A model generated the notes under the pieces. That model did no database searches. It saw only the letters and a program-made list of their open reading frames with translations, and was not told where the DNA came from. Shown one piece after another: positions 3,390 through 12,159 of a DNA stretch of 12,785 nt. The position numbers and the translations under genes are program-made. The stretch lies in contig JAGAXP010000214.1 in NCBI GenBank assembly GCA_017940955.1, positions 1-12,785 of the forward strand, read 5' to 3'. This DNA is from Oribacterium sp. Lineage in GTDB: Bacteria; Bacillota_A; Clostridia; Lachnospirales; Lachnospiraceae. Each line of letters starts with the position of its first letter. Position 1 is the stretch's first letter.

Positions 3390-3450
3390 ATTGCCACAGT
3401 ATATTCCATAAAATGCAGTCATCAATTACGCTTTACCTTTTTACTTAACT

Positions 3451-3517
3451 ACTCAAACTACCACTAAATACATAGTAGTAGTTTGAGTCTATAACTAATC
3501 AAAGACATAGTTATAGA
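3451..3517. repeat. Two adjacent hairpins downstream of the TetR gene
   Basis: ACTCAAACTACCACTA (3451-3466) pairs with TAGTAGTAGTTTGAGT (3473-3488) over 16 positions with one mismatch and a 6-nt loop. Immediately after, TCTATAACTA (3488-3497) pairs perfectly with TAGTTATAGA (3508-3517). The two stems abut, sharing base 3488. They lie about 60-130 bases after the TetR stop, so they may be its terminator region, but neither has a T-tract. Confidence 0.5.
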
Positions 3518-3566: not shown

Positions 3567-3590
3567 CATCCAACATCATCTATACTTCTC

Positions 3591-3668
3591 AAAAGTGATA
3601 AAAAGTGATAAAATATCAAAAAGTGATAAAAAGTGATAAACGGCAGTTGAGGTGATAAAAAGTGATAA
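3591..3668 (+). repeat. Six-unit GTGATAAA iteron-like array ending in the ATPase start codon
   Basis: GTGATA occurs at 3595, 3605, 3623, 3633, 3652 and 3662. The units form three pairs, each with a 10-base offset, and the pairs recur every 28-29 bases. The first two pairs are embedded in AAAAGTGATAAAAAGTGATAAA-like sequence. In the last pair, the first unit is part of the ribosome site GAGGTGAT and the second supplies the GTG start codon of the ATPase gene. The 10-base spacing puts paired units on the same face of the helix. The array is probably a binding site for a regulator, possibly the ATPase itself. Confidence 0.75.
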
Positions 3669-4714
3669 ACAATAAGAACAACCCTTATACTCTGATGTTT
3701 GGTAAACAACCGGCACAAAACATACCGAGATTAGTAGAGTTAAATGAAGTTCTGGACTCATTTCTCAATGAACCTGCAAACCAGCAAATATATATGATTA
3801 CCGGTGTACGAGGATGCGGCAAGACCGTTTTTATGACCGAGGTAGCTAACGAACTTAAGTCGCGAAAAGAATGGGAAGTACTGGAACTGAGCACAAGTCA
3901 AAATTTACTTAGCAGTATGGCAGATGCATTATCCAAAGAAAGCAGATTTACCCAATTCCTGAAACGAGGAATCGGTGTATCCATAGCCGGATTTGGAGTA
4001 CAACTTGATGCTCATAAAGAAATCACAAGCCCTCAGATAACCATCAAAAACACCCTTGATGCGTTAAAAAAGCATGATAAAAAGCTCTTGATTTGTATTG
4101 ATGAAGTTATTTCCAATGATTATGTAAAAGAATTTGCAAGTATTTTTCAGATACTGGTCAGAGAAGATTATCCAGTTTATCTCTTAATGACCGGTCTGTA
4201 TGACAATATCAACGACCTAAGAAATGAGAAAAATCTAACATTTTTATATAGGGCGCCTGAAATCAAAATGAAGGCTCTTAATATGGCTACCATGGCTGAA
4301 AACTATAAAACCAATCTCGATGTTTCCCTTGATCAGGCAAAAGAGATGGCAAAATTAACTCTGGGTTATTCTTTCGCTTTTCAGGTCTTAGGTTACTTCA
4401 CTTTTAGACATGACGGAAATTATAATGAAGCACTTTCAGAATTCAGACAATACCTTGAAGATTATGTTTACGAAAAAATCTGGTCAGAACTATCTTATAT
4501 GGATAAAAAGTTTCTTTACGCTGTCGCAAGCACAAAAACCGGAAAGGCCAAAGAAATAAAGGATAGTCTCGGTTGGACCAACAATAAGTACACCCCATAT
4601 AGAAACCGTCTGATCAAAAAAATGATCCTAAACGGAGATGATTATGGTTATCTCAAGATCACATTACCTTTGTTTAATGAATATATCATCAACACTTTCG
4701 ATGACGATATGTAA
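3662..4714 (+). CDS. Orphan AAA+ ATPase with C-terminal winged-helix-like region (archaeal-ATPase / Orc-Cdc6-like)
   Basis: This 350-residue protein has a P-loop GVRGCGKT at residues 48-55 and a Walker B motif LLICIDE at 142-148. The N-terminal NPYTLMFGKQP phrase, followed by a short linker to the P-loop, is typical of the archaeal-ATPase/AAA_16 group common as orphans in Clostridia. From about residue 270 on, KIWSELSYMDKKFLYAVAS and the following helices look like a winged-helix DNA-binding fold, as in Orc1/Cdc6-like ATPases. The GTG start at 3662 has GAGGTGAT at 3649-3656 and preserves the conserved NPYT region, so a downstream ATG would truncate the protein. No toxin, nuclease or transmembrane part is visible. 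Function is unknown; the iteron-like array over its own start suggests autoregulation. The gene stands alone on its strand, 145 bases before the AraC gene. Confidence 0.8.
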   Translation: MINNKNNPYTLMFGKQPAQNIPRLVELNEVLDSFLNEPANQQIYMITGVRGCGKTVFMTEVANELKSRKEWEVLELSTSQNLLSSMADALSKESRFTQFLKRGIGVSIAGFGVQLDAHKEITSPQITIKNTLDALKKHDKKLLICIDEVISNDYVKEFASIFQILVREDYPVYLLMTGLYDNINDLRNEKNLTFLYRAPEIKMKALNMATMAENYKTNLDVSLDQAKEMAKLTLGYSFAFQVLGYFTFRHDGNYNEALSEFRQYLEDYVYEKIWSELSYMDKKFLYAVASTKTGKAKEIKDSLGWTNNKYTPYRNRLIKKMILNGDDYGYLKITLPLFNEYIINTFDDDM

Positions 4715-9155: not shown

Positions 9156-9704
9156 TTATCCAAATACTATACCCAGTACTGCCGCAAATATTATAAGGTG
9201 TATGGGGGAAGCCTTCCTCTTCAGGAAGCGTTTGTGCAGCAGCATAAACATAAAAAGGATCAGGGTTATCAGGATATTCACATAGCTAAAGCCATCTACG
9301 GAACGGCAGTTATTTATGATCATATAAAGCCCAGTGGATATGATGATACCGATGATGCAGGGCTTAATGCCTTTGAGCACTGCCCGGAAATGCGGATTGT
9401 CCGTAAAATTCTTCAGTATGGTTGAAACGATAAGTATTATGATAAATGACGGTAAAGCGACAGCAGTAGTTGCTATGAGGGCACCGGATATCCCGGCCTG
9501 ACTGCTTCCTATATAGGTGGCCATATTCACCATGATAGGACCAGGTGTACTTTCACTTACGGCAATCATATAGGTGAGCTGATCCTCGCTGAGCCATCCA
9601 TAGTTCATGACCACGTCACGTATGAGAGGAATTGCACCATAGGCTCCACCAAATGCAAATATTCCTATCTGCAGAAATCCCAGTAATAGTTCAAGATATA
9701 TCAT
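9156..9704 (-). CDS. Chromate transporter (CHR family), second half-size subunit
   Basis: This 182-residue, strongly hydrophobic protein with five to six predicted membrane segments is a single-domain (short-chain) CHR transporter. Its signatures are FAFGGAYGAIPLI (about 17-29) and the conserved SESTPGPIMVNMATYIG (about 50-66). Short-chain CHR proteins usually act as pairs encoded side by side. They export chromate or, in anaerobes, probably transport sulfate-like or other oxyanions; the real substrate is not shown by sequence. The start at 9704 has only a weak ribosome site (AAAGAAAGAG), so translation may depend on the upstream partner gene, whose reconstructed end is about 80 bases away. 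It converges with the EamA remnant. Confidence 0.85.
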   Translation of the reverse strand: MIYLELLLGFLQIGIFAFGGAYGAIPLIRDVVMNYGWLSEDQLTYMIAVSESTPGPIMVNMATYIGSSQAGISGALIATTAVALPSFIIILIVSTILKNFTDNPHFRAVLKGIKPCIIGIIISTGLYMIINNCRSVDGFSYVNILITLILFMFMLLHKRFLKRKASPIHLIIFAAVLGIVFG

Positions 9705-9785: not shown

Positions 9786-10333
9786 TTACTTTTTCACCTT
9801 TTGTAAACTGTTGCAGATGAGACCGATCAAACCAGCCGTCATCATCATGATAACTGTGGAGACCTTAAATCCCAGAAGCTCCGAACAAAGCATCAGCAGC
9901 ATTGATGAAGAAAAATAATGATGGGAAAAAGCTTCTTTTTCATTTTTGAAAGCATTCCTATTCCGGCATTGAAAATCAAAAGACCCACTGCAAGCTTGAT
10001 GCCCCTGAAGGCATCGGCAACTATTTTTATCTCCATAAAATTGCTTAAAAAACAGGAGATGATATATATGATTAGAAATGCAGGAAGGATTACTCCAAGT
10101 GTCGCGGCAAAGGCGCCTTTTAATCCGTTTATTTTATAGCCCACATAGGTGGCGCAGTTTATGGCGATGGGACCCGGGGTGGACTCCGCGATGACAGTCA
10201 TATTCATCATCTCATCATGAGTTATCCATTTCTTTTTTGTTACGCAAATGTCTTCGATAAGGGAGATCATGGCGTACCCTCCCCCGAAGGTAAAGCTTCC
10301 GATTTTTGCAAAGGTTAAGAACAGTTCAATCAT
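9786..10333 (-). pseudogene. Chromate transporter (CHR family), first half-size subunit, frameshifted near the C-terminus
   Basis: From ATG 10333, with a GAGGAG ribosome site, the frame gives a normal CHR start with FTFGGGYAMISLIED and ESTPGPIAINCATYVG. It runs to KKKLFPIIIF and then ends abnormally (LHQCC, stop at 9893). A different frame picks up the expected last helix immediately: MLLMLCSELLGFKVSTVIMM through TAGLIGLICNSLQKVKK to stop 9786-9788. A small indel in the T-rich stretch around 9900-9920 therefore splits the gene. The joined product would have about 182 residues, the same as its neighbour. The truncated 146-residue product lacks one membrane segment and may be nonfunctional, unless the shift is a sequencing error. 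Confidence 0.75.
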
Positions 10334-10680: not shown

Positions 10681-11517
10681 TTATTTCTGTAGCATATTTG
10701 CTATAATGGTACGCTCATTCCCAGTTATTTCAAGTGTGTTCATGGCATCTTCCAATGAACATTTCATATTCTTCATCATTTTTCGAATATCACTGACAAG
10801 CGTATCAATCCTAGTAGCTTCAGAACTCTTTCTAGCTTCTTCTTCTGCATATTTTCTTACTGATTCACACACAATATCACGTCCTTCCTTTGTTTCCTTA
10901 AAATGGTGAAGACCATCTGCCAATAACTTATAATTCATATTCTTGGAAGTTTTAGCATGAAAATCTTCTATCAACTTACCAATCTCATCATCACCTTTAT
11001 ATCTACCATTAACATAAATGATATGAGAGCCATCACCAAAGGCTGTTCCTATTTCTTGTACAGTTCTATCTATATGATACATCGGCAAACCTGCACCAAA
11101 CTTATCGTACTTATAGATAAAAATCACATAAGAGTCTTTCAGTAATTTGAATGGATCACCTTCTTTGAGCATTCGCGAATCCATTACCGCACTATGAAAA
11201 CGAGTTCTTCTTACATGTGCACCTTCTGAGCCACCTTGTACTTCAATATCAATTTCAGTGCCGTCTGCATCTATAGCGTGAACGTCAAGTCTGATATCTC
11301 TGCCACCAATCTCAGGACTCCTCATCTCTTCCTGCGTTTGAATATCTATAACTGTAATTTTTCTGCCAAATATAATACCCAGAATTAATTCTGTAGCAGG
11401 AATGTTCTTTCTAAAAACAAGAGTCATCAAATCATCGTCAAATAAATCCATTTCATCGACAATCTTATTGATTTGCTTATTTTCCTGAGTCTTGCCACCA
11501 GCCTCCATATTATCCAT
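10681..11517 (-). CDS. Rpn-family recombination-promoting nuclease / PD-(D/E)XK putative transposase
   Basis: This roughly 278-residue protein opens with DLFDDDLMTLVFRKNIPATE and has RDIRLDVHAIDADGTEIDIEVQ in the first half, the D...(E)xQ core of the PD-(D/E)XK fold seen in Rpn/YhgA-like proteins. RRTRFHSAVMDSRMLKEGD and the YVIFIYKYD strand follow in the expected order. Rpn enzymes cut DNA and promote RecA-independent exchange, and are often near mobile elements. The C-terminal third is a Lys/Glu-rich helical tail (EEEARKSSEATRID...). The frame is open to 11571, but a good promoter at 11551-11578 would start transcription near 11544. I therefore place the start at ATG 11517; ATG 11508 is equally possible. 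The gene has its own promoter and terminator and lies between relaxase and TnpW-like remnants. Confidence 0.85.
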   Translation of the reverse strand: MDNMEAGGKTQENKQINKIVDEMDLFDDDLMTLVFRKNIPATELILGIIFGRKITVIDIQTQEEMRSPEIGGRDIRLDVHAIDADGTEIDIEVQGGSEGAHVRRTRFHSAVMDSRMLKEGDPFKLLKDSYVIFIYKYDKFGAGLPMYHIDRTVQEIGTAFGDGSHIIYVNGRYKGDDEIGKLIEDFHAKTSKNMNYKLLADGLHHFKETKEGRDIVCESVRKYAEEEARKSSEATRIDTLVSDIRKMMKNMKCSLEDAMNTLEITGNERTIIANMLQK

Positions 11518-11550
11518 TCCCTTTTCATTTCTCCTCACATTAATAGTAGC

Positions 11551-11578
11551 ATCATACCACACCCAAAACAATTAGCAA
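11551..11578 (-). promoter_or_regulatory. Promoter of the Rpn-family gene (extended -10)
   Basis: On the minus strand TTGCTA (11573-11578), a 16-base spacer and TATGAT (11551-11556) preceded by TGG form an extended -10 promoter. Its start site, about 11544, helps choose the translation start of the Rpn gene. Confidence 0.55.
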
Positions 11579-11669: not shown

Positions 11670-11794
11670 GTCTGATGTCGTATAAATTGTCGTTCTAGTG
11701 TGCTACGGTCATTTGCCTGCTCACGTTCTTCTTTGGTTTTGTTTAACTTTATAACCTCTGCATAAGCTAAATCATTAACCTCTGCGCTCATCAT
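11642..11794 (-). CDS. 50-codon frame overlapping the end of the relaxase fragment (coupled small protein or frameshifted relaxase tail)
   Basis: ATG 11794 overlaps the relaxase fragment's TGA (ATGATGA), a layout typical of translational coupling. The product reads MMSAEVNDLAYAEVIKLN, KTKEEREQANDRSTLERQ and FIRHQTRKHSYLDR: 50 residues, charged and helical. The same frame is open further upstream to 11824 (GHGEQFPIEN), so it could instead be the continuation of the relaxase after a frameshift near 11825. I do not recognise the family with confidence. The A-rich, Glu/Lys/Arg-rich composition resembles small proteins carried on mobilisable elements. No strong ribosome site is present. Confidence 0.4.
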   Translation of the reverse strand: MMSAEVNDLAYAEVIKLNKTKEEREQANDRSTLERQFIRHQTRKHSYLDR

Positions 11795-12159
11795 ATTCTC
11801 AATTGGAAACTGCTCTCCATGACCTTTCGGTTATAATCTCCACGCTCTATATGGATGCCTTTTTTCTCCAAGGCATTTGCTTTACTTCCAAGATGAATTG
11901 TGTGTGGTTCTTCTATATCAAGTTCTTTGAAAGACCTATGCTCCCAATACTCATTTATTTTGAGTGCATCATTAGTTTCGTTGATAAGCTCTGTGAGATT
12001 CTTTCTCCACATTTTCGCCTTGCTTGGGCCATCCCAATCCGTGGTCTTTTCAGTCTTGGATTTATAACCTTTCTTGGTGCGGATTTTGTTGCCGTCTTGA
12101 TCAAGGATATAGATTTTCTTTTGCTTGGGCATCCACTTACCACTTTCGATTGGGCACAC
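11791..12159 (-). pseudogene. MobA/MobL-family relaxase fragment lacking the catalytic N-terminus
   Basis: The frame reads CPIESGKWMPKQKKIYILDQ, DGNKIRTKKGYK, TTDWDGPSKAKMWRKNLTEL, YWEHRSFKELDIEEPHTIHL and GSKANALEKKGIHIERGDYN. The K-x-Y-x-LD-x-DG, DWD..., HRSF and P-T-I-H-L-G...E-K-G-I...ERGD-x-N-R blocks are hallmarks of the region following the catalytic domain in MobA/MobL (MOBQ) relaxases, which nick plasmid or transposon DNA at oriT. The N-terminal part with the catalytic Tyr and His cluster is absent, because the frame is closed just upstream of 12159 and an inverted repeat (12166-12215) begins there. The C-terminus also ends early at 11791. The piece is a leftover of a mobilisable element. 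A GTG at 12159 could start it, but no ribosome site is present. Confidence 0.75.

Follow-up and report, generated by a model that had tools for sequence, protein, structure and literature searches.

In a fold search, the solved structures nearest to the ATPase encoded in the window analyzed here (the window being the whole 12,785-nucleotide stretch of an Oribacterium sp. contig) are those of the archaeal ATPases PABY2304 (2QEN) and SSO1545 (2FNA), with Orc2/Orc1/Cdc6 and NLR/apoptosome proteins coming next. PABY2304 and SSO1545, both archaeal ATPase_2 proteins, share 18% and 13% identity with the window ATPase, respectively; an upstream array of short repeats such as that of our locus is absent at 30 genes retrieved with the ATPase_2 model, all of them from the phylum. 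The archaeal Orc1/Cdc6 and Orc2 initiators (2QBY, 2V1U and 1W5T) show 13–14% identity to the window ATPase, and here, unlike at those initiators, the array sits in the predicted promoter of the ATPase gene itself. Iteron plasmid Rep proteins combine a winged helix, phased direct repeats and autoregulation, features held in common with the reading of the array ATPase for which we argue below; to our knowledge, these Rep proteins are not AAA+ proteins. The STAND regulators MalT and IniR likewise place a STAND-type ATPase module in a DNA-binding regulator. The available portion of the IniR study describes an 818-residue protein that controls the iniBAC operon and combines a MalT-III-like domain with a C-terminus resembling LuxR, and likens its ATPase domain to SSO1545 (PMC5760070); unlike IniR as portrayed there, the system considered here is a single short protein with sites almost only at its own gene. 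In the plant NLR Rx1 and in NLR/apoptosome proteins, the NTPase core and the winged helix follow one another in the same order as in the window ATPase. Rx1 has been reported to bind and bend DNA, and differs in that a sequence-specific private operator is not described in the accessible part of that report (PMC4599002). Our literature search found no description of the array or of this ATPase family, with most subscription papers lying outside the reach of the search.

In the window, six exact copies of the unit GTGATAAA start at positions 3595, 3605, 3623, 3633, 3652 and 3662 of the forward strand and form three pairs (3595..3612, 3623..3640 and 3652..3669), with successive spacings of 10, 18, 10, 19 and 10 bp and pair starts 28 and 29 bp apart, which bears out the phased paired repeats that the original prediction had placed upstream of the ATPase gene. 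The 18-mer pair GTGATAAAAAGTGATAAA occurs three times without mismatch, compared to an expectation in shuffled sequence of 0.05 matches with up to three mismatches allowed, and three copies were reached in none of 200 shuffles; over the whole window, GTGATAAA occurs 8 times against 0.89 expected, with the array accounting for six of these. Unit 5 overlaps the heptamer AGGTGAT (3650..3656, forward strand), which lies 5 nt ahead of the GTG, should be complementary to 16S rRNA and is presumably the Shine-Dalgarno sequence, while unit 6 coincides with the GTG start codon of the ATPase reading frame (3662..4714). The N-termini of homologues (M..NPYTL.FGK) agree with this start, such that the proposed identity of the last pair with the ribosome site and start codon holds in the window. 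As a general trait it fails, since the start falls within the last two units in only 11 of 131 homologous arrays (with start codons picked by our own start-choosing rule), and the fusion is thus real in the window and a side feature of the family rather than its essence. We note two further observations on the surrounding DNA. Between the TetR gene and the array lies an inverted repeat (about 3438–3504); stretches of 29–59 bp from this region recur at 80–100% identity in at least 5 of 17 genus genomes among the candidates scored, and may represent a small repeat element or a terminator held in common. Further along, the window holds two adjacent single-domain chromate transporter genes (9156–9704 and 9893–10333; PF02417, the second matching positions 1–140 of 166), and its right end shows signs of a mobile element in the form of a PD-(D/E)XK transposase-family protein (10681–11571) and a MobA/MobL fragment (11791–12159).

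The ATPase itself comprises 350 amino acids (3662..4714, forward strand) and matches Pfam ATPase_2 (PF01637) with 44.5 bits against a cut-off of 33.2, over profile positions 4–143 of 225 only. Sequence and alignment place the motif GVRGCGKT, which we take to be the Walker A motif, at residues 48–55 (3803..3826). An AlphaFold2 model built from 38 alignment rows (mean pLDDT 84.5) predicts an NTPase core and a helical part, followed at the C-terminus by a winged helix (residues about 279–333, 4496..4660) that consists of helices 279–290, 296–303 and 307–319 and then a small hairpin. This prediction supports the winged-helix-like C-terminus suggested earlier. In the model, residues 307, 311 and 312 form one face of the predicted recognition helix (residues 307–319, 4580..4618), and residue 328, a tyrosine in this protein (4643..4645), lies in the wing loop. 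The order of core and winged helix, together with a fold match along most of the chain, suggests a STAND/ORC-type AAA+ protein, and the label "Orc-like" given to the gene at the outset is best rendered, from the fold search, as ORC/STAND-like; the Orc1/Cdc6 family profile TIGR02928 yields 14.2 bits for the window ATPase, far under its cut-off of 181.3. Among the PADLOC defence models, six families match around the P-loop only, the best being PDC-S01 (7.2e-06, residues 28–80).

The family to which this protein belongs comprises 3131 proteins at E ≤ 0.001 among 5302 candidates. Gut and rumen bacteria are its home, and it extends to records titled Olsenella, Eggerthellaceae, Enterorhabdus, Solobacterium and Spirochaetales, several of which are metagenome bins and may be mixed. 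To examine the upstream regions, we combined the best 80 of 491 confirmed contig matches with loci from genome searches, and a scan of these gave 178 hits, or 157 distinct loci after removal of duplicates. A chained array scoring above 5.0, the top score reached by 157 shuffled regions (one letter shuffle per region), is present upstream at 148 of the 157. The nine loci at or below this value comprise the gene fragments L104, L108, L111 and the second L122, as well as L012, L141, L106, L113 and L103, the last three of which score exactly 5.0. By comparison, the highest score at the 30 ATPase_2-model genes was 4.0, where the control gene was taken as the longest reading frame over the middle of the locus and may in a few cases not be the matched gene. 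Among the plasmid relatives examined (8 of 21 matching records), the array is clear in four (Pseudobutyrivibrio, Lactobacillus crispatus and two related Arthrobacter) and not clear in the other four. At the Arthrobacter plasmid loci L238 and L242, GACTCACA units spaced 10, 9 and 10 bp stand upstream of ATPases of 29.1% and 26.8% identity. From these sequences, the array system appears to reach plasmids of Actinomycetota.

What is constant across the family is the architecture, with 10 bp within pairs and 19 bp between them: in arrays scoring above 6, the spacing is 10 bp in 475 cases, 19 bp in 251 and any other value in 68. As the array caller favours precisely these two spacings, we also computed the autocorrelation of 142 upstream regions, which is free of this bias, and obtained peaks at lags of 10, 19, 29 and 39, with no such peaks in control sets of 142 gene-body and 134 further-upstream regions. 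The letters of the unit, in contrast, vary by gene. Each array has one consensus unit, and those seen across genes include GTGATAAA, ATGATAAA, GTAATAAA, ATCGTAAA, ACAGTAAA and CCAGTAAA, as well as ACTATAAA, ATTATGAA, GTTATAAC, ATTATATA and more; base 5 of the unit is T in 130 of 131 arrays, although the register was chosen partly by that T. The original prediction had proposed comparing the upstream regions of homologues, and had taken a lack of GTGATAAA-like repeats there as grounds for rejection. In that comparison the array is kept and the letters often differ (ATGATAAA, ACAGTAAA, ATCGTAAA, ATTATGAA and others), and read literally, this yardstick would have misfired. We also considered whether paralogues within one genome avoid sharing a unit; 52 of 53 such pairs differ, but shuffling already leads one to expect only 0.74 equal pairs, and this provides no evidence of avoidance. 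Likewise, pairs of loci that share little DNA identity and lose their similarity at the edge of the array show only conservation of array and gene.

If each ATPase reads its own array, the letters of the unit and the residues of the winged helix should change together, and they do. The comparison covers the 131 of 157 loci with a called unit, an array score above 6 and a family score above 200. Of the 70 arrays with A at base 1, 68 go with H, R or Q at residue 328, and of the 61 with G (as in the window), C or T, 54 go with Y, the other seven going with R (5), H (1) or F (1). Units with CAG at bases 2–4 are accompanied by T and N at residues 307 and 311 in 32 of 33 cases, TGA units by N and T in 18 of 24, and TCG units by D and S in 5 of 5; with the 12 arrays that have a letter other than A at base 6, P and V, elsewhere the most frequent residues at 312, do not occur at that site. 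Among 344 protein columns, residue 328 has the highest normalized mutual information with base 1 (0.29, compared to 0.14 for the next column); column 307 leads for base 2, 311 for both base 3 and base 4, 314 for base 5 and 312 for base 6. For base 7, which rarely varies, the best column is the core residue 177, and for base 8 it is 281, followed by 42 and 316.

As shared ancestry can produce such associations, we controlled for it on a tree built from the ATPase part alone (residues 7–275), along which base 1 changes 32 times and residue 328 changes 27 times. Across 12 independent pairs with different letters at base 1, residue 328 shifts in the matching direction in 6.7, in the opposite direction in 0.0 and stays unchanged in 5.3 (averages), with a median p of 0.0156. 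The corresponding values are 2.8, 0.0 and 4.2 for base 2 with residue 307 (7 pairs, p = 0.25) and 4.9, 0.0 and 2.1 for base 6 with residue 312 (7 pairs, p = 0.06), while the links of base 3 with 311, base 4 with 311 and base 3 with 307 give p values of 0.5–1. The base 1/328 link is therefore the only one to pass the strict tree test at p = 0.05 on independent pairs; the others miss this level because there are few informative pairs, and none of them leans the other way. In a scan for co-change along branches, the top place among 344 columns goes to residue 328 for base 1, to 307 for base 2 and to 281 for base 8, whereas 311 falls outside the top seven columns for bases 3 and 4, and the background is such that columns of the ATPase core get to p near 1e-4. 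Taking these tests together, the case that is robust to ancestry rests on base 1, and the links of bases 2 and 8 are suggestive. Among 17 loci left out of the fit for their lower array or family score, one (L129) was not callable, and residue 328 called the base-1 class correctly in 14 of the other 16 (Fisher p = 0.013, with rows L083/L107 and L172/L173 being close kin); the two failures are L169 and L180. The original prediction had suggested that the ATPase may bind its own iterons. Of this, the expected co-variation between unit letters and recognition-helix and wing residues is present, and from it we infer the binding itself.

The array is also placed where a bound protein could control the gene. 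By promoter consensus, the window has a −35 box TTCTCA (3586..3591, forward strand; 4/6 matches at the expected place), whose first base is also the first that is homologous with Oribacterium sp. KHPX15, and, after a 17-bp spacer, a −10 box TAAAAT (3609..3614; 5/6 matches) built from the TAAA of unit 2. Pair 1 thus fills the gap between the two boxes and overlaps the −10 box, with pairs 2 and 3 in the predicted transcribed leader. Across the family, 76 of 130 arrays have a −35 match of 4/6 or better at the position expected for it, and 55 have one of 5/6 or better, compared to 12–19 (4/6 or better) and 1–4 (5/6 or better) at four shifted control places in 126–130 arrays; in 63 of 130, the TAAA in the second unit of pair 1 is continued by AT, completing TAAAAT. 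The remaining 54 of 130 arrays have no −35 box of 4/6 at the expected place, and for some arrays (L016, L017, L019 and L029) visual inspection places a −35/−10 pair immediately ahead of the array. The overlap of a putative operator with the promoter of its own gene, as judged from these consensus matches, is consistent with autoregulation.

Sites of this kind are found almost only at family genes in the genomes searched. A search of KHPX15 that tolerated up to three mismatches gave five hits, of which three make up the array and the other two have three mismatches; a reversed-pattern control gave one. Eleven genomes with GTGATAAA arrays hold 15 sites with one mismatch allowed, 12 of which are at family genes, while the control pattern hits none. 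MCAGTAAA arrays account for 26 of 26 sites at family genes (24 of 25 genomes with sites) and ATGATAAA arrays for 9 of 9 (9 of 11 genomes with sites), both assigned by comparison of coordinates; where a genome gave no hit (of L054, L019 and L031), its array deviates from the exact search pattern. The three GTGATAAA sites away from the family are a single pair inside a reading frame (L190), a single pair (L191) and a four-unit array (L187). The single near-match pair at L191 (G319:C54, 430–447) stands upstream of a different AAA-like reading frame. At L187 (G156:C13:49500-54500, about 2041–2087 of the locus), which belongs to the genome of L003, an exact four-unit GTGATAAA array with 10-19-10 spacing precedes a DUF362 gene (PF04015), possibly as a second target or as the trace of a lost ATPase gene.

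We consider it likely that each ATPase binds its own array as a private operator and thereby autoregulates, and probably represses, its own promoter. In the mechanism that we propose, the C-terminal winged helix of one protomer would read one 10-bp unit, with the recognition helix (residues 307, 311 and 312) contacting bases 2–6 and the wing (residue 328) contacting base 1. Paired protomers would sit one helical turn apart, and the 29-bp pair repeat would hold an ATPase oligomer in register along the promoter. The bound ATPase would then block transcription, as negative autoregulation, because pair 1 fills the spacer between the −35 and −10 boxes and the later pairs cover the transcription start and, in the window, the ribosome site. 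Given an ATPase module of the ORC/STAND switch type, assembly and release may depend on the nucleotide and on some signal.

The strongest competitor, which we regard as rather unlikely, is that the bound ATPase activates its own promoter, or that the array is part of a wider regulon. Activation is how STAND regulators of the MalT type work, and the exact array ahead of the DUF362 gene would be a possible second member of such a regulon. Sites within the spacer or over the −10 box and downstream of it are, however, typical of repression, which is the layout of pair 1 and the later pairs, respectively, and array sites elsewhere are few in the genomes searched; site layout favours repression.

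A less probable account, to which we give little credence, is that the array is an origin-like or element-maintenance site, i.e., the iteron cluster of a minimal mobile or replicating unit with the ATPase as its initiator, by analogy with iteron plasmids and archaeal Orc1/Cdc6 origins. Beyond the resemblance of the fold to Orc1/Cdc6, it draws on the evidence that the unit of array and gene has moved, for which we claim no mechanism. The KHPX15 copy is 93.6% alike to the window from 3586, at the −35 box, to 4708, shortly before the gene ends, and the flanks on either side are unrelated, while KHPX15 keeps the TetR locus of the window (91% over 2.2 kb) without the ATPase gene; with 93.6% so near to 91%, relocation during vertical descent is no less and no more likely than a recent transfer. 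In one genome bin, the two copies L032 and L033 are 99.7% alike over 1833 bp and diverge 27 bp past the stop codon, although one of them lies at a contig start and an assembly effect is possible. The distribution is patchy as well, with a match in 9 of 17 genus and 61 of 299 family genomes, some of them only fragments or weak matches. Against such a site, no other replication or transposition gene travels along in the pairs compared, the array fits a promoter, and the family has no match among 50,697 phage records, while in viral contigs 14 stretches fitted a pattern and none was confirmed. Flanking direct repeats, considered as possible element ends, exceed the top control score of 31 at 14 of 148 loci (by far at L032, L165, L066 and L002), but share no common position or sequence, and we therefore claim no mechanism of transposition. 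A clean empty site was likewise sought and set aside, since KHPX15 retains the TetR locus and lacks the AraC side, and G014 and G009 match the AraC side only.

Still further behind is the proposal, raised at the outset as an alternative, that the repeats, as part of the mRNA leader, serve as decoys for ribosome sites or start codons, which we find very hard to sustain. It is prompted by the window, where GTGATAAA contains GTG and part of a Shine-Dalgarno-like string, and does not carry over to the family, in which ATG, GTG or TTG occurs in only 36 of 131 unit consensuses and is absent from 95, and in which array and start codon are seldom fused, as noted above. In addition, the predicted start of transcription comes only after pair 1, the winged helix co-varies with the unit letters, the leader RNA of the window shows no unusual fold (z = 0.84), and the window has no Rfam match at the gathering score. 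That the arrays are functionless low-complexity repeats, kept alike by replication slippage, would fit their AT-rich units and tandem layout and is nonetheless next to inconceivable given the 10/19 spacing with differing spacers kept across phyla, the co-variation with the protein and the absence of arrays at other genes found with ATPase_2.

Private autoregulation by the ATPase, if correct, would assign a concrete role, testable at the molecular level, to a common protein family whose function our literature search did not find described. More tentatively, and as a possibility that we would not yet favour, the loci may form a large, horizontally spread family of minimal units, each consisting of a promoter-embedded array and one STAND/ORC ATPase, with protein and address changing in concert and several members coexisting within a genome without cross-talk; the array might then be the DNA template for an apoptosome- or ORC-like ring or filament, released when the template is lost or upon entry into a naive cell, and the table of letters and residues a natural recognition code of the winged helix. 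Under private autoregulation, the family would also offer a naturally occurring table that connects residues of the winged helix with DNA letters, a set of distinct regulator–operator pairs and, in bacteria, a tractable model for an ORC/NLR-like ATPase with possible assembly on DNA.
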